Source of the DNA: Terriglobia bacterium
GTDB lineage: Bacteria > Acidobacteriota > UBA6911
Length of the DNA stretch: 64,000 bases
Assembly: GCA_020072565.1 (NCBI GenBank)
Contig: JAIQGI010000005.1
Coordinates: 124,001 to 188,000, forward strand
Direction: 5' to 3'
Of this stretch, positions 49,034 through 56,846 are shown piece after piece; position 1 is the first letter of the stretch; every line of letters begins with the position of its first letter. The notes beneath the pieces were generated by a model. That model saw nothing but the letters and a program-made list of their open reading frames with translations, ran no database searches and had not been told where the DNA came from. The position numbers and the translations under genes were made by a program.

Positions 49034-49071
49034 AGCGACCAACACACGGCTGGCTGGAAGGACAAACCATG
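49034..49071 (+). promoter_or_regulatory. Leader and ribosome site repeated from 25803
   Basis: AGCGACCAACACACG, a GGAAGGACA ribosome site and ACCATGAAA match 25803-25840 at about 80 percent or more by eye. It fixes the GH54 start at 49069. A TAGAAT box lies at 48998, ~70 bp before the start. Confidence 0.5.
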
Positions 49072-52000
49072 AAAACGAAAATCAATCTTGTGCTAATGTT
49101 CGCACTGGCGCTCACGCTGATTGGCGCCACATTCACGTTGACGTTGGCGACACAGGTCGGAGCGGGAGCCAATGTTCCTCCACCCAGGCCGCAAGGCCCA
49201 TGTGACATCTACGCCGCTGCAGGCGCCCCCTGCGTGGCCGCCCACAGCTCCACGCGCGCGCTGTACGCCTCCTACAACGGCCCGCTCTACCAGGTCATGC
49301 GCCAGTCGGACGGCAAGACCTTAGACATTGGCGTCGTCCAGCCATCCGCGGGGGATGCGGGCGGATACGCCAACGCGGCCGCGCAGGACGCGTTTTGCGC
49401 CAACACGTACTGCTGGATCGCCACCCTCTACGATCAGTCCGGCAAGGGCAACCACCTCACCCAGGCGCCCCGCGGCGGATTCAGCGGCCCGGCCATGGGT
49501 GGGTTTAACAACATCCCGGTCGCCGATATGGCGCCCGTTACAATCATGGGCCACAAGGCCTACGGCGTCTTCATCGCACCGGGCATGGGCCTCCGCCAGG
49601 ACGACCCGAAGGGCACCGCAGTCGACGACCAGGCCGAGGGGCAGTACTGGGTCATTAGCGGCCACCACTACAACTCCGGTTGCTGCTACGACTACGGCAA
49701 CGCCGAGACCGACAGCCGGGACGACGGCAACGGGACCATGGAAACCACCTACTTCGGCAACGCCACCGCCTGGTATCGCGGGCCCGATCCCGGCCCGTGG
49801 ATCATGACCGACCAGGAAAACAACCTGGTGGGTTGCGTCAACGCGGATGGATCCAAATTCTGCAAAGACCTGCCGAGCATCACCTGGCGGTTCGTGACCG
49901 CCATGGCCGATGGCGAACCGCACCACTGGAGATCCATGGGCGGCGACGCGCAGAAGGGCGGCCTGCAGGTCATGTTCGACGGACCGCGCGTCAACGCCAC
50001 CTATGACCCGATGCGCAAGCAGGGAGCCATCCTCCTGGGCAACGGCGGCGACAACAGCAACGGCTCGCAGGGCACCTTCTATGAGGGGGCGATGACGGCC
50101 GCAGGCACCTTCCCGGCACAGGAGACCAACCAGAAAGTGCAGGACAACGTCGTGGCCGCCAAGTACGACGTGCAGCGGCTGAGCCTGGCGCCGGCGTCGG
50201 CAACTGCCAAGCCGCCGGGACTCCAGACGTTTTCACCGGGTTCCTCGCAGGACACTACGGTGACGTTCACCAATACCACGGGGGCGCCCGCGGTGGGAGT
50301 CGAGTTGAGCATTTCCGTGCCCAACAAGCAGTGGACCACCATCGTTGCGGGCACCAGCAAGACGTCGGCGACGTTCGCTGATGCGGTCGCGCCAGGTGCG
50401 AGCGTGAGCGCAAACTTTAAGGTCACTTCGGGGCCGGCGGCCTTCAACGGCAACCTGGTCGGCCGCGCCTCGTGGACAAACCGGACGACCGGCGAGAAGC
50501 AATCCGAGACAACGGTCGAGAAGGTGCGGAACGTCAGCTCGATCAAGATCAACGAGTTCCGCATTAACGCTGGTTCTCCCGCCAACCCGACGGACTCGTT
50601 CGTTGAGCTCTACAATGCCGGCGCCGGCACCGTCGACATCTCCAACTGGACCCTGACCCACCACCCGACCCAGCAGCCGATCTTCTCTTCGGTGAAGATC
50701 CCGGCCGGGACGAAGCTCGCGGCTCGCGGCTTCTACCTGCTCGGCCTGGCCAACTCCGGGCTGGCGGTCCCCGCGCAAAAGGGTGATACAACCATCTACG
50801 TCAGGAGCACGGCCGGCATGTCGGTCGGCGATACGATTGAAATCGACACCGGCTCCGCTGTGGAAACCCGCAAGATCGCAGGCATCGGAACTGCGGCCGG
50901 CAACAGCACGACGCTGTGGCAACCCCTCCCCGACGGTCCAGTGATCACGATCCCCGTCGGTTCGACCATCGTGCCTTTCACCGGCGCGGGCGGCGCTTTC
51001 GGCGGCGGAGGCGGCTTGGCAGTCGAGGTCGGCCAGAAGATCGGCATTGGCTATGGCGCCACCTACCCCGCCGTCGCAAAAGCCGCTGAAAAATACGAGG
51101 TGGTCACGGTCACAGCAGTCGGCAAGCAGGGCACGCAAGCCTGGCTGTCCGCGGACGCGAAAGCCAGCGATACCAACATCAAGGTATCATCCGTCGCCAA
51201 CATCTCCGTTGGTGACAAGATCAGATTGGACATCGACAGCGTTGGACATGGGATCGAGACCGTCACGGTCACGAAAGTCGGCACGCAATCGGCATTCAAC
51301 CCCAACAACGTTCGTAAGGGGGATCCGGGCACAGGCCTTGACCTGGCCGAACCGCTCAAGTTCAACCATGCGGCCAACATCCCCTTCAGCGTAAGAGGAA
51401 CGGGGATCAGCTTCCAGCCGGCCACAGCCTTTGCCCACTCGAGCAACGAGCCCATCCTGCCGCTCGGAACCGGCATCACGCTCGACCAGCCCCTGGCCAA
51501 CGGCCACGCGATCGATGCGGTTGTGCGTGACGAGAAGGTCACGACCGCGGGCTACCAGGGGACGCAGAAGCCCAACCAGTGGTTCGGGGGGCCCGCCCTC
51601 TCCAACGCCGGCAGCATGGTGCTGCGTGACGCCACTGGCCTGGTCGTCGACAGCCTCAATTACGGCGGCCTCGTTGATCCGTGGGCCGCCGAGGGTTACC
51701 AAGCCGAATCCGGATCAGGGAAGAATGGCTGCAGCGTGCCTGCGCCCGGCGGGGGCAGGGGGGGCTTCGGCGGGCGGGGCGGTTCGCCCACCGCCACGCC
51801 CAATAGGAGCGCGGGCCGCTTCCCGGACGGCCTCGACGCCGATAGTAACTGCACCGATTTCCTGTTGCAGGCCGCCACCACCCTGTCGGCCGCTTCGGCC
51901 GCCGGCGCGGACAATATCAAAGTCGCCAGCGTGGCGGACTTTGCCACCGGCCAGGCGATTATGATTGATACCGGCGCGAGCCTCGAGACCGCCGTCATCG

Positions 52001-52224
52001 CGACGGTCGGCACGGCAGGCGCCACCACGGTGGGCGCCGCTACCGTCGTGGGCGCAACCGTGATCCCTGTCGCCGGCGGGATGGGAGAGGCGCCCCTGGA
52101 GGCGGCCCTGGCCGCGGTGGTCCTGGCGGCGGTGCCACCATCACCGTCGCCGTGCCGCTCAAGTCTGCGCACGCGGCGGGCGCACAGGTCTCCGGCACTG
52201 GTATCACCCTCACCGCTGCATTGA
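49069..52224 (+). CDS. GH54 alpha-L-arabinofuranosidase with NEW3, lamin-tail and repeat modules, copy 1 (frameshifted end)
   Basis: The ~1051-residue secreted protein starts with a signal peptide and then a GH54 (AbfB-type) catalytic domain: QGPCDIYAAAGAPCVAAHSS, LYQVMRQSDGKTLDIG, MAPVTIMGHKAYG, GCCYDYGN, TMETTYFGN, GGDNSNGSQGTFYEG. Next are a NEW3-type sandwich (about 375-480), and a lamin-tail domain beginning SIKINEFRINAG whose second half (AGSMVLRDATGLVVDSLNYG) is separated from the first by repeat modules of the form 'TxIxVxSxAxxxVGDxIxIDxGxxxET'. A third repeat follows at 51885. After IPVAGGMG at 52087 the frame becomes implausible, while the +2 frame continues GRGAPGGGPGRGGPGGGATI to a stop at 52310; so the last part is frameshifted. 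Bacterial GH54 is uncommon. Confidence 0.85.
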   Translation: MKTKINLVLMFALALTLIGATFTLTLATQVGAGANVPPPRPQGPCDIYAAAGAPCVAAHSSTRALYASYNGPLYQVMRQSDGKTLDIGVVQPSAGDAGGYANAAAQDAFCANTYCWIATLYDQSGKGNHLTQAPRGGFSGPAMGGFNNIPVADMAPVTIMGHKAYGVFIAPGMGLRQDDPKGTAVDDQAEGQYWVISGHHYNSGCCYDYGNAETDSRDDGNGTMETTYFGNATAWYRGPDPGPWIMTDQENNLVGCVNADGSKFCKDLPSITWRFVTAMADGEPHHWRSMGGDAQKGGLQVMFDGPRVNATYDPMRKQGAILLGNGGDNSNGSQGTFYEGAMTAAGTFPAQETNQKVQDNVVAAKYDVQRLSLAPASATAKPPGLQTFSPGSSQDTTVTFTNTTGAPAVGVELSISVPNKQWTTIVAGTSKTSATFADAVAPGASVSANFKVTSGPAAFNGNLVGRASWTNRTTGEKQSETTVEKVRNVSSIKINEFRINAGSPANPTDSFVELYNAGAGTVDISNWTLTHHPTQQPIFSSVKIPAGTKLAARGFYLLGLANSGLAVPAQKGDTTIYVRSTAGMSVGDTIEIDTGSAVETRKIAGIGTAAGNSTTLWQPLPDGPVITIPVGSTIVPFTGAGGAFGGGGGLAVEVGQKIGIGYGATYPAVAKAAEKYEVVTVTAVGKQGTQAWLSADAKASDTNIKVSSVANISVGDKIRLDIDSVGHGIETVTVTKVGTQSAFNPNNVRKGDPGTGLDLAEPLKFNHAANIPFSVRGTGISFQPATAFAHSSNEPILPLGTGITLDQPLANGHAIDAVVRDEKVTTAGYQGTQKPNQWFGGPALSNAGSMVLRDATGLVVDSLNYGGLVDPWAAEGYQAESGSGKNGCSVPAPGGGRGGFGGRGGSPTATPNRSAGRFPDGLDADSNCTDFLLQAATTLSAASAAGADNIKVASVADFATGQAIMIDTGASLETAVIATVGTAGATTVGAATVVGATVIPVAGGMGEAPLEAALAAVVLAAVPPSPSPCRSSLRTRRAHRSPALVSPSPLH
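51847..52087 (+). repeat. Near-identical 241-bp block shared by the two GH54 genes, copy 1
   Basis: This block and 55276-55516 have the same length and, by my count, about five differences, with the last ~125 bases identical. Flanking parts of the two genes are clearly more divergent. It begins at AACTGCACCGATTTCCTG and ends at GCCGGCGGGATGGGAG, the place where both reading frames break. Confidence 0.8.
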
Positions 52225-52659
52225 CCCGGGCGCATGACAGCGGGGCGCAAGTCGCCAACAATGTTCCCACGCCTGGAGCTTCCAACCAGTATTCCAGCCG
52301 CCGTCGTTGAAGGCGCCTGTGGAACTGGGTAGTGCGCTGAATCCTTGTGACTGACCTGGTGGCGGCCTCGAAAGAATTCCCGGCCGCCACTGGACCACGT
52401 CTTATCTTCCATGAACTGAATTGGACTTGAAGCTCCTAGCGAGGAAGAGGCAGCCAAGTTCCTTATTCTGGTCGAGGCGTTTTGTTGTCAGCGAGAGCCG
52501 GTCTGCCGGTTCTCGCGGCAACTCGGCCGCTTCAATCAGCACCTGGCGCAGGGCCTCTGCGCGGAACTCCTGCGACGACGGCGACGCTCATTGAAATCAG
52601 AAATGGAATAGCATCCCGGGGCTCTAATAAGCAGCCACGGCAAGGCGATCAGGATAAAT
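52225..52659. other. Gap between the GH54 genes, with two hairpins
   Basis: 52225-52310 is the out-of-frame remainder of GH54 copy 1 (GAQVSGTGITLTAALTRAHD and on). GTGGCGGCC (52359-52367) and GGCCGCCAC (52382-52390) form a perfect stem. A larger hairpin spans 52484-52522, with GCGAGAGCCGG against CCGGTTCTCGC around a TCTG loop. Neither has a T-run, so terminator function is uncertain. Nothing else is recognised. Confidence 0.45.
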
Positions 52660-55600
52660 GTGAAAACGAGAATCGATATTGTGAGAATGCTTGTACTGGC
52701 GCTCACACTGGTTGGCGCCACGTTGACGATGGCTACACCGGACGGGGCGGAGCCGCCCCGGCAGCAGGGCCCGTGTGACATCTATGGCGCAGCGGGCACC
52801 CCCTGCGTAGCCGCCCACAGCACCACGCGCGCGCTGTACGCCTCCTACAACGGCCCGCTCTACCAGGTCAAGCGCCAGTCGGACGGCAAAACCTTGGACA
52901 TTGGCGTCGTCCAGCCCGTCGCGTCGCCGGTCCCGGATGCGGGCGGACACGCCAATGCGGCCGCGCAGGACGCGTTCTGCGCCAATACGACCTGCGTCAT
53001 CAACCTCATCTACGACCAGTCCGGCAAGGGCAACCACCTTTACCAGGCGCCCCCAGGCACATTCAAGGGCCCGGCGAAGGGCGGATTTGACACGCAACCG
53101 ATCGCGGATATGGCGCCAATTACGATCGGCGGCCACGAGGCCTACGGCGTCTACATCATGCCGGGCATGGGATTCCGCAACAACAATGCCACCGGCATCG
53201 CGATCAATGACGAGCCGGAGGGCATCTACTACGTCATAGACAGCACACACTACGACAGCGGCTGCTGCTTTGACTACGGCAACTCCTCGACGAACGGCCG
53301 TGCCGTGGGCACAGGCACCATGGAAACCACCTATTACGGCACCGCAACCGCCTGGGGCAGCGGTAGCGGCCCCGGCCCATGGATCATGGCCGACATGGAA
53401 GCCGGCCTGTTCTCCGGATACAACGGGAAGCAGAATATCGCCGATCCGACCATCGATTCCTGGCGGTTCGTGACCGCCGTCGTCGACGGCGGTGGCGGCA
53501 ACAAATGGGATCTCCGCGGCGGCAACGCGCAGAAGGGCGGCCTGACGACCTTCTACAGCGGAATTCGACCCGGCTCACTTACCAACAACAGCTATTACCC
53601 GATGCACAAGCAGGGGGCCGTCCTCCTGGGCACTGGCGGGGACAACGGCAACGGTTCGTCTGGCACCTTCTATGAGGGTGTGATGACGACCGGCTATCCG
53701 ACCGAAGCCACCACAGATGCCGTGCAGGCCAACATCGTGGCTGCCAAGTACGAAGTGCAGCGCGTGGGGCTGTCGCGGGTCACGACGTTCACGCCGAAAT
53801 CGGCGCAGGACGTCACCGAGACTTTCACGAATACCACGGGGGCGCCCGCGGCGGGCGTCAAGTTGAGCATATTCGCGCCCACGGGGTGGACCGCCTTGGC
53901 CTCAGGCGCCACCGGCGCGTCGCTGACGTTCAGCGCCCCGGTCGCGCCGGGTGCGAGCGTGAGCGCGACCTTCAAGGTCGCCTCGCCGGCGACGACCGGA
54001 GCCGGCTTCCTGACCGGCAAATCCGAGTGGACGGACCCGGCGACCCGCAGGACGCAATTTGAGACAACTACTGCGAGAGTGCGGAACGTCCTCCCGATCA
54101 AGATCAACGAGGTCCGCTTCAGCACCAGCACCAACGCGACCAACCAGTTCATCGAGCTATACAACGCCTCCGCCAGCACCGTCGACCTCTCCAACTGGAG
54201 CCTGATCAACACCCAAAGCCAGTGGGCCCCTGTCAAGCTGGCGACGATCCCGGCCGGGACGAAGCTCGCGGGCAACGCCTTCTACTTGCTTGGCCTCTCC
54301 AACTCGGGACTGGCAGCCCCCGCAAGCCGAGGGACGACCACCATCAACGTCAGAAGCACCACCGGCTTCGAGGTCGGCCAGCAGATCGACATCGATGGCG
54401 AGACCTGCACGATCGTAACCGTCGGGACGGCAGCCACGGCCATGACGACGCTGTTCGTGCCCGTGTCCACGGGGCCGTGGATCACCATCCCCGCCGGCTC
54501 GACCAACCTGCCTGTCACGAGCTCGATCGGCTTCGCGGTCGGCCAGAAGATCGGCATCGACATCGGCGGCAACTACGAACTGGCCACAGTCACCGCGGCC
54601 GGCAAGGCGGCCACGCAAACGACCCTGTCGGCGGCGGCGGTCGCGGGGGCTACCAACATCAAGATCGCAGCCAACGCCAACATGACGGTCGGTGACACGC
54701 TGACGGTCGGCACCGGCGGACGCAAGGAGCTCGTCACGGTTGCGAGCGTCGGCACCACCGGCGCGAGCGGCACGGGCGTCGATTTGGCCGCACCGCTGAA
54801 GTTCGACCACATGTCAGGCGTTGACGTGTCCGATGCGGGGACGGGGATCAGCTTCTCGCCGGCTACGAGCTTCCCGCACGTAAGCGGCGACGCGGTACAG
54901 GCGCTGGGAAGCGGCATCACGCTCGACAGCCCCCTGGTCAACGCCCACGCGTACGGCGCGGCCGTGGTCAACCCCCTGGCCACAACGGTAGGCTACCAGG
55001 GGCCGCAGGCGCCCAATCAGTGGTTCGGGAGCAACCTCTCCACCAGGGCCGGCTCGATCGCACTGACGGATGCCGGCGGCGTGGTGGTCGTCGATGCCAT
55101 GGTCTACGGATCCCAGCAGAGCAGCTCGAGCGGTAACGGGACCATCGCCAGCCCCGAGATTGCCACCCTCGAGGCCGACCAAGGCAAGGGTGGCTGCATC
55201 GTGGTGGTGCCCAGCCCGGCCAATGGCGCCGGCAGGAGCCGGGGCCGCTTCCCGGACGGTCTCGACACCGACAGCAACTGCACCGATTTCCTGTTGCAGC
55301 CCGCCACCACCCTGTCGGCCGCTTCGGCCGCCGGCGCGAACAATATCAAAGTCGCCAGCGTGGCAGGCTTTGCCGCCGGCCAGGCGATTATGATTGATAC
55401 CGGCGCGAGCCTCGAGACCGCCGTCATCGCGACGGTCGGCACGGCAGGCGCCACCACGGTGGGCGCCGCTACCGTCGTGGGCGCAACCGTGATCCCTGTC
55501 GCCGGCGGGATGGGAGTGGCGCGAACCAGGAGACGGCGGTTGTCGTCTCCGCCACCGGCGGCAGAGGCGGCGCCACAATCACCGTTGCCGCACCGCTCAC

Positions 55601-55662
55601 TTTTGCGCACGCGGCCGGTGCACAGGTCTCCGGCAGCGGCATCACCCTCACCGCTGCATTGA
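52660..55662 (+). CDS. GH54 alpha-L-arabinofuranosidase with NEW3, lamin-tail and repeat modules, copy 2 (frameshifted end)
   Basis: The 1000-residue tandem paralog starts at a GTG with AGGATAAAT upstream and has a signal peptide. The GH54 domain shows QGPCDIYGAAGTPCVAAHST, LYQVKRQSDGKTLDIG, GCCFDYGNSS, TMETTYYGTAT and GGDNGNGSSGTFYEG. A NEW3 sandwich, the lamin-tail start PIKINEVRFSTSTNATNQFI and three repeat modules follow (GTTTINVRSTTGFEVGQQID, GATNIKIAANANMTVGDTLT, GANNIKVASVAGFAAGQAIM). As in copy 1 the frame fails after IPVAGGMG (55516); the alternative frame reads on (GANQETAVVVSATGGRGGAT, ITVAAPLTFAHAAGAQVSGS) to a stop at 55853. The protein would be secreted and would release arabinose from arabinoxylan. 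Confidence 0.85.
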   Translation: MKTRIDIVRMLVLALTLVGATLTMATPDGAEPPRQQGPCDIYGAAGTPCVAAHSTTRALYASYNGPLYQVKRQSDGKTLDIGVVQPVASPVPDAGGHANAAAQDAFCANTTCVINLIYDQSGKGNHLYQAPPGTFKGPAKGGFDTQPIADMAPITIGGHEAYGVYIMPGMGFRNNNATGIAINDEPEGIYYVIDSTHYDSGCCFDYGNSSTNGRAVGTGTMETTYYGTATAWGSGSGPGPWIMADMEAGLFSGYNGKQNIADPTIDSWRFVTAVVDGGGGNKWDLRGGNAQKGGLTTFYSGIRPGSLTNNSYYPMHKQGAVLLGTGGDNGNGSSGTFYEGVMTTGYPTEATTDAVQANIVAAKYEVQRVGLSRVTTFTPKSAQDVTETFTNTTGAPAAGVKLSIFAPTGWTALASGATGASLTFSAPVAPGASVSATFKVASPATTGAGFLTGKSEWTDPATRRTQFETTTARVRNVLPIKINEVRFSTSTNATNQFIELYNASASTVDLSNWSLINTQSQWAPVKLATIPAGTKLAGNAFYLLGLSNSGLAAPASRGTTTINVRSTTGFEVGQQIDIDGETCTIVTVGTAATAMTTLFVPVSTGPWITIPAGSTNLPVTSSIGFAVGQKIGIDIGGNYELATVTAAGKAATQTTLSAAAVAGATNIKIAANANMTVGDTLTVGTGGRKELVTVASVGTTGASGTGVDLAAPLKFDHMSGVDVSDAGTGISFSPATSFPHVSGDAVQALGSGITLDSPLVNAHAYGAAVVNPLATTVGYQGPQAPNQWFGSNLSTRAGSIALTDAGGVVVVDAMVYGSQQSSSSGNGTIASPEIATLEADQGKGGCIVVVPSPANGAGRSRGRFPDGLDTDSNCTDFLLQPATTLSAASAAGANNIKVASVAGFAAGQAIMIDTGASLETAVIATVGTAGATTVGAATVVGATVIPVAGGMGVARTRRRRLSSPPPAAEAAPQSPLPHRSLLRTRPVHRSPAAASPSPLH
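55276..55516 (+). repeat. Near-identical 241-bp block shared by the two GH54 genes, copy 2
   Basis: Partner of 51847-52087; same boundaries relative to the reading frame and the same terminal GCCGGCGGGATGGGAG. Immediately after it the two genes diverge sharply (GAGGCGCCC against TGGCGCGAA). Confidence 0.8.
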
Positions 55663-55807
55663 CCCTGGCGCATGCCAGCGGGGCGCAGGTCGCCGGCAGC
55701 GTTCCCACGCCCGGCGCGCCCAACAGATATTACATCCCGGTCGCGTACGTAAACCCGCTTGCGCGAGTGTCAGGCTACGCACTGACCCCTACGGTTCCGG
55801 CCGGGCC

Positions 55808-56030
55808 ACCAGCTTTGGTTATAAATCCTATGCGACGATTCTGGATGCGGTGAACCGTGTTAACACGGGCGCAACGGTACACACATCACGGCCGGTACCT
55901 ACGCTGAACACGTGGTCATCGACCGGGACATTACCCTCCAGACCAGTGGCGCGGTTACGCTGCAAGGCTCCGGTGGTGATGGCATTACCATCGCCGGCAG
56001 GAAGGTCCACGTGTTAAGGGCGGACCCCGG
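55808..56030 (+). pseudogene. Beta-helix (pectin-lyase-fold) relic after GH54 copy 2
   Basis: One frame reads ATSFGYKSYATILDAVNRVN, TGATV; after an apparent two-base slip in an ACACAC run near 55882 the next frame gives HITAGTYAEHVVIDRDITLQ, TSGAVTLQGSGGDGITIAGR. This is the opening of a parallel beta-helix ('Y.tI..Av..v..G.ti.i..GtY.E.v.i...itl'). It probably was the C-terminal domain of the GH54 protein or a separate gene, now separated from it by a stop at 55853. It ends where the SGNH gene on the other strand begins to be recognisable. Confidence 0.65.
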
Positions 56031-56846
56031 TCCTGAAATCTTTGATCGGCCTTTTGCGCTGGGGTCGCCGGTGGGAGGCGGCGCCAAATCTTCCTTTGCC
56101 GGCGGACCGAGCAGTTCAGTGAAAAGGGGCTTCAATGCATCGGCCCATATCTGATACCCCTTGATGGCCGGATGGAGCTTGTCCGGATTCATCACTCCTT
56201 CAAACAGCTTGCCCTCACTGTCCGTCAATTTATCCGTAACGTCCAGGAACCGGATCCTCTTGCCGTCGGCGAATTTCGAAATATTCTCATTGATCTTTTT
56301 GATCGTGGGCATCACGGCAATGATGTCGTTTCGGGGAAAAATGCCCATGAGGATGATGGTCGCCTCCGGTGCTTTCGCGCGCATGATGTCCAATATCGCC
56401 CTGATGCCGCGAGTGACATCTTCAACTTTGGCCTCCACATCGGTTGAGACCCTGTTGCCGACATTATTGGTGCCGGCAAGGAGGACGATGATTTTGGGAT
56501 TGATGTCATCCAGTTCCTCGTTATTGAGGCGCCAGAGTATGTTCTGAATATTGTCGGCGCCCCATCCGAAATCAGCGGCATTCCAACCGAAGAAGTTCTG
56601 CTTCCAGTTGGCAAGCAACTCGGGGTAATCGGTCGCTCCCCAGCGGCGCGTAATGGAATCCCCTTCGAAATAAATATCGATGCGGCCCTTCTTTGCCTTT
56701 TCAAGCAATTCCCGGTGAGCAGTCATTGAGTTCTCGTCCGATCGGGCGACAGGTTGATTCGCCGGAACAGTCGGGAATCCTTGGGGGAAGCACAGGAACA
56801 TCCCTGCAGTCAAAAAGAACACAAATGGCAAAACGCATGGTTTCAT
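55899..56846 (-). CDS. Secreted SGNH/GDSL esterase, with read-through C-terminus
   Basis: The 315-residue product has a signal peptide and the SGNH blocks: IYFEGDSITRRWG (nucleophile Ser), FGWGADNIQNILWRLNNEE, VLLAGTNNVGNR (Asn), and NPDKLHPAIKGYQIWADAL (Asp-His). The fold ends near GPPAKEDLAPPPTGDPSAKG. The final ~47 residues (from about 56043 to the stop) are read from the antisense of the beta-helix relic, so the native stop has probably been lost by the same rearrangement. Such esterases often deacetylate xylan or pectin oligomers; the substrate is not known. It is a paralog of the esterase at 61336. Confidence 0.85.
   Translation of the reverse strand: MKPCVLPFVFFLTAGMFLCFPQGFPTVPANQPVARSDENSMTAHRELLEKAKKGRIDIYFEGDSITRRWGATDYPELLANWKQNFFGWNAADFGWGADNIQNILWRLNNEELDDINPKIIVLLAGTNNVGNRVSTDVEAKVEDVTRGIRAILDIMRAKAPEATIILMGIFPRNDIIAVMPTIKKINENISKFADGKRIRFLDVTDKLTDSEGKLFEGVMNPDKLHPAIKGYQIWADALKPLFTELLGPPAKEDLAPPPTGDPSAKGRSKISGPGSALNTWTFLPAMVMPSPPEPCSVTAPLVWRVMSRSMTTCSA

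Follow-up and report, generated by a model that had tools for sequence, protein, structure and literature searches.

An out-of-frame deletion in tandem GH54 genes of a Terriglobia bacterium, probably spread by gene conversion

We analysed a 64,000-nucleotide stretch of a Terriglobia bacterium genome (contig JAIQGI010000005.1, positions 124,001 to 188,000; hereafter the window), whose forward strand carries an old tandem pair of genes, type A (copy 1) followed by type B (copy 2) (Table 1). Both are predicted to encode secreted GH54 alpha-L-arabinofuranosidases and match the full profile of PF09206 (ArabFuran-catal; 1.2e-122 for copy 1 and 2.7e-138 for copy 2). As in the fungal enzyme AbfB (PDB 1wd3 and 6sxt), the catalytic domain is full-length in both copies, with the Glu and Asp aligned with positions 205 and 281 of the 6sxt chain. 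We take Glu221 and Asp297 to be the catalytic pair of AbfB, and the aligned residues are present in both copies. Beyond this domain the likeness to AbfB ends: the rest of each protein gives no convincing match and instead contains a NEW3 domain together with the opening part of a Lamin Tail Domain (LTD). The LTD is split by inserted beta-rich repeats of ~40–50 residues each. An intact, shorter relative (L086) is without the last insert and ends GRFPDGSDTASNCTNFVSAAGASGTPGAPNQSSKR; on this evidence, the LTD of the long forms closes with their terminal PTPGAPNQY. The inserted repeats resemble the Rider domain of a phage K1 capsule lyase (L086:3645-5177, L018:5974-7986); the Rider match in L086 (PF24149, 8.8e-6) falls just under its cut-off, and a Foldseek comparison of the L018 model with 7w1c gave a probability of 1.00 but an E-value of about 0.05–0.2.

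Table 1. Features of the tandem GH54 genes, numbered by position in the window
Feature	Position	Strand	Remarks
GH54 copy 1 (type A)	49069..52224	+	Frame 0, ATG to premature TGA; 1051 aa, last 45 out of frame
GH54 copy 2 (type B)	52660..55662	+	Frame 0 to premature TGA; 1000 aa, last 48 out of frame
Catalytic domain, copy 1	49198..50166	+	Intact; aligned with 6sxt/1wd3: DQENN, GGDNSNG
Catalytic domain, copy 2	52771..53751	+	Intact; catalytic Glu/Asp positions present: DMEAG, GGDNGNG
Lamin Tail Domain first part, copy 1	50533..50793	+	Beta-rich repeats inserted after
241-bp near-identical block, copy 1	51847..52087	+	Five differences; perfect from 51947
241-bp near-identical block, copy 2	55276..55516	+	Perfect from 55376
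Type-A-like segment, copy 2	55240..55745	+	81–96% to C63 and L018 versus ~70% upstream; spans break
Deletion junction, copy 1	52084..52088	+	GGGATGGG^AGAGGCGCC; ~82 nt missing versus L020
Deletion junction, copy 2	55513..55517	+	GGGATGGG^AGTGGCGCG; 31 nt missing versus in-frame paralog C63
+2-frame C-terminal tail, copy 1	52086..52310	+	Outside frame-0 product; native-like stop (after QYSSRRR)
+2-frame C-terminal tail, copy 2	55515..55853	+	Outside frame-0 product; native stop also out of frame

Frame 0 is open in both genes through ...GTCGCCGGCGGGATGGGAG and into GGCGGGATGGG, and closes with a TGA at homologous places (52222-52224 in copy 1, 55660-55662 in copy 2). After GGGATGGGAG, the C-terminus of the family (ITVAVPL or ITVAAPL, then AHAAGAQVSG and PTPGA) lies in the +2 (−1) frame of both. 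An initial annotation of this DNA had proposed that both genes break frame and that the tail continues in +2, and the frame-0 TGAs together with the position of the family C-terminus bear this out. Its estimate of about five differences in a 241-bp block proved exact: we counted five (51871, 51910, 51936, 51938 and 51946, copy 1 numbering), followed by a perfect 141-bp run (51947-52087) and a first mismatch at 52088. Two further claims held in part. The left flank diverges as described (~70% identity), but the right flank does so for ~45 bp only and then returns to 83–86%; these 45 bp differ because the Gly-rich linker of the family is variable and was cut differently in each copy. The breaks, placed at the same base, do share their left edge (52085/55514), but the sequences joined on the right are different (AGAGGCGCC versus AGTGGCGCG).

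Three GH54 genes are present in the genome. The third, a paralog on contig C63, has no break at the site (...VIPVAVGAGFSVGQTITIDSGANQETAVV...PTPGAPNQYYRKGASAKK, then a stop), and its open frame spans 1222 codons. A scan of public genomes yielded 80 loci in Acidobacteriota, Bacteroidota, Planctomycetota and other phyla, giving a frame survey of 87 genes with the C63 paralog counted in. By pattern, 75 of the 87 were scored intact. Five more (L046, L054, L056, L059 and L093) proved intact on inspection, having fallen outside the pattern score because their C-terminal motif varies or sits just beyond the pattern; L086 is the intact shorter form. Of the other six, four are truncated by the end of their contig and the remaining two, both in L085, have frame breaks at other places. 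None of the surveyed genes whose sequence covers the site has a frame break at it, so the long form is the conserved one; relatives in which the short frame is conserved, anticipated as a possible refutation, were not seen, and those surveyed are in the long frame. At L085 (2920-7636), frame breaks elsewhere shorten both GH54 copies of a Bacteroidales genome.

A search for the junction across 38 genomes of the class found no other copy, and the only other genome of the genus examined has no such gene. A close relative of the gene occurs in only one (G031) of the other 37 class genomes examined, and near relatives sit in genomes of peat Acidobacteriota. Horizontal transfer of the pair is possible.

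Compared with their in-frame relatives, both copies lack sequence at the junction. In copy 2, the gap of 31 nt relative to C63 lies directly after GGGATGGG. The gap in copy 1, ~82 nt relative to L020, has the same left edge and extends into the Gly-rich linker. Because 31 and ~82 nt are missing, each length being 1 modulo 3, the break is an out-of-frame deletion inside a repeat unit and not a one-base insertion; the ancestral one-base insertion considered earlier is ruled out by the 31-nt gap relative to the in-frame paralog. The right edges AGAGGCGCC and AGTGGCGCG share AG[A/T]GGCGC (AGxGGCGC) in the same codon register, which suggests that one deletion came first and that resolution of a conversion tract at this short match gave rise to the other. 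As 13% of shuffles contained an equally good match, resolution at this point is something we infer from the edges. In an alternative history, the 31-nt deletion may have been common to both copies, and copy 1 would afterwards have lost a further ~51 nt in frame.

For the greater part of copy 2, identity to copy 1 and to type-A relatives is ~70%; copy 1, by comparison, mostly shows 80–95% identity to C63 and L018. At about 55240 the identity of copy 2 to type-A genes rises, reaching about 90–96% in the block and holding at 81–92% past the break to the 3' end. In a tree of 38 proteins built from the part upstream of RFPDG, copy 2 fell into a clade of second copies (L023b, L069b, L074b, L080b and L088b; support 100) and copy 1 grouped with the type-A genes; this tree replaced an earlier eight-row upstream tree (p-AU 0.196). 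The block tree joins copies 1 and 2 as sisters (98/90), and constraining copy 2 to its upstream type-B clade was rejected (p-AU 0.0235). The tract is thus more alike than its flanks (141 bp identical and five differences in 241 bp, versus ~70% upstream), and the trees of tract and flank are in conflict. Such incongruence supports the earlier suggestion of gene conversion between the tandem genes. The shift in identity at ~55240 and the conflicting trees indicate that the 3' part of copy 2 received its sequence from a type-A gene; a more recent exchange, in either direction, made the 141 bp identical. A tract ending exactly at the break, which had been remarked on as unusual, describes the recent identical part but not the whole, as the type-A likeness runs to the 3' end. 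Because copy-1-type sequence continues beyond the break in copy 2, the tract does not truly end there.

The tandem arrangement of type-A and type-B GH54 genes recurs at L023, L069, L074, L080 and L088, in Acidobacteriota, Bacteroidota and Planctomycetota. Their type-B genes form one clade upstream and are scattered in the 3' block, so the block has likely been exchanged repeatedly among such pairs.

The best explanation, to which we assign a probability of roughly 0.8, is that interparalog gene conversion spread an out-of-frame deletion, leaving an ordinary recombination scar. The first event would have been an out-of-frame deletion in one copy that cut into the last repeat unit (FSxGQTITID..., at least 31 nt, 1 modulo 3). 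Homologous recombination in the repeated 3' block would have transferred that block, together with the deletion's left edge, into the other copy. The last exchange would have ended at the junction, the new strand probably re-annealing at AG[A/T]GGCGC, which would account for the same left edge and lost frame with different right edges. Each gene would now yield an enzyme without its last ~90 residues and with an added run of 45–48 residues.

A close precedent is found in Mycobacterium tuberculosis, where a 12-nt indel and 40 single-nucleotide polymorphisms over a 135-nt stretch moved from one of the tandem genes PE_PGRS17 and PE_PGRS18 into its partner (PMC1762029). In both systems, bacterial genes in tandem have a GC-rich and repetitive coding sequence, and an indel travels in a conversion tract. 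The PE_PGRS17/18 indel is in frame and was seen in many strains, whereas the GH54 deletion is out of frame and inferred from one genome, and its right edges differ. The process is a known one, of which the GH54 pair is a new instance. The pair is a clean natural example, in a bacterium, of conversion passing a damaging deletion from one tandem paralog to another, and the intact third paralog of the genome serves as reference.

The main remaining doubt on the deletion reading is assembly. Repeated 3' blocks could have been mis-joined in a short-read metagenome assembly, the missing bases being real sequence. The blocks are repetitive, GC-rich and near-identical, the genome is in 135 contigs with an estimated contamination of 3.8%, the perfect run stops at the junction and an otherwise intact frame is lost at one base in both copies, all of which would fit an artefact. 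Yet mis-joining would have to produce two separate junctions with different right-hand sequences, in a window whose adjoining genes have long intact frames, and copy 2 has independently undergone a small change at its native stop. We regard an artefact as improbable on balance, while taking it more seriously than any other alternative to a deletion spread by conversion.

At the native stop of copy 2 (55735-55853), the change amounts to a small deletion compared with L018 and L019; it takes the stop off the +2 frame, so that the tail ends in PNRYYIPVAY... where L018 has PNKYYRPRSRM and a stop. Each product loses ~91 C-terminal residues (L018 numbering), replaced by 45–48 residues rich in Arg, Pro and Ser, and annotation pipelines will assign wrong C-termini to both genes. 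Structure prediction for the L018 region (mean pLDDT 75.9, pTM 0.58) places six strands in the lost stretch, in blocks mostly at 74–93 pLDDT. Both products should keep an intact catalytic domain and may plausibly have lost attachment or stability while staying active. A more adaptive account is that the truncated form was selected, conversion having spread the loss of the repeat-bearing end of both secreted enzymes and so altered their attachment or release, a change reversible by conversion from the intact third paralog; we think this very unlikely.

The +2 tails have dN/dS values of 0.2–0.56, within the range among in-frame relatives. This comparison, which the initial annotation had proposed, does not separate recent loss from continued use: either the loss is recent or the tail is somehow still translated. 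The values fit a recent loss and by themselves are no proof of translation.

The other explanation first offered was a real translational frameshift site giving a long and a short form. Programmed −1 ribosomal frameshifting would suit a break common to both copies and a +2 tail that is open, with a protein-like substitution pattern, and at known −1 sites, too, the downstream frame continues the protein. Those sites have a slippery heptamer, special RNA structure and conservation, whereas here there is a deletion. In frame 0, the interval from the last −1-frame stop before the junction up to the junction itself contains no X XXY YYZ heptamer; the nearest in copy 1, at 51759, lies upstream of the −1-frame stop at 51966, and copy 2 has none nearby. 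Folded without pseudoknots, the downstream RNA has no extra stability over shuffled sequences (z = −0.34 and −0.54). Relatives are in frame and without the site, and a frameshifted product would still be without the deleted half repeat. We therefore reject programmed frameshifting on the absence of motif, fold and conservation, and give it hardly any weight; two copies breaking at one base are a pointer to copied damage, not to recoding. Equally remote is a deletion that predates the duplication and was inherited by both copies, as the common left edge and frame would allow, since types A and B are distinct in several phyla and both in frame there, and the block is 97–100% alike versus ~70% elsewhere.

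Downstream of copy 2, the translation of positions 55770-56030 resembles the N-terminal part of a beta-helix protein (ATSFGYKSYATILDAVNRVNTGATVH / THITAGTYAEHVVIDRDITLQ...); this fragment is divided between two frames where a CACACA run occurs, and the genome has no second copy of it. On the minus strand, a GDSL-lipase frame (55899-56846) appears to lack an end of its own and to run on into this fragment, which suggests a further rearrangement scar between copy 2 and the GDSL-lipase gene.
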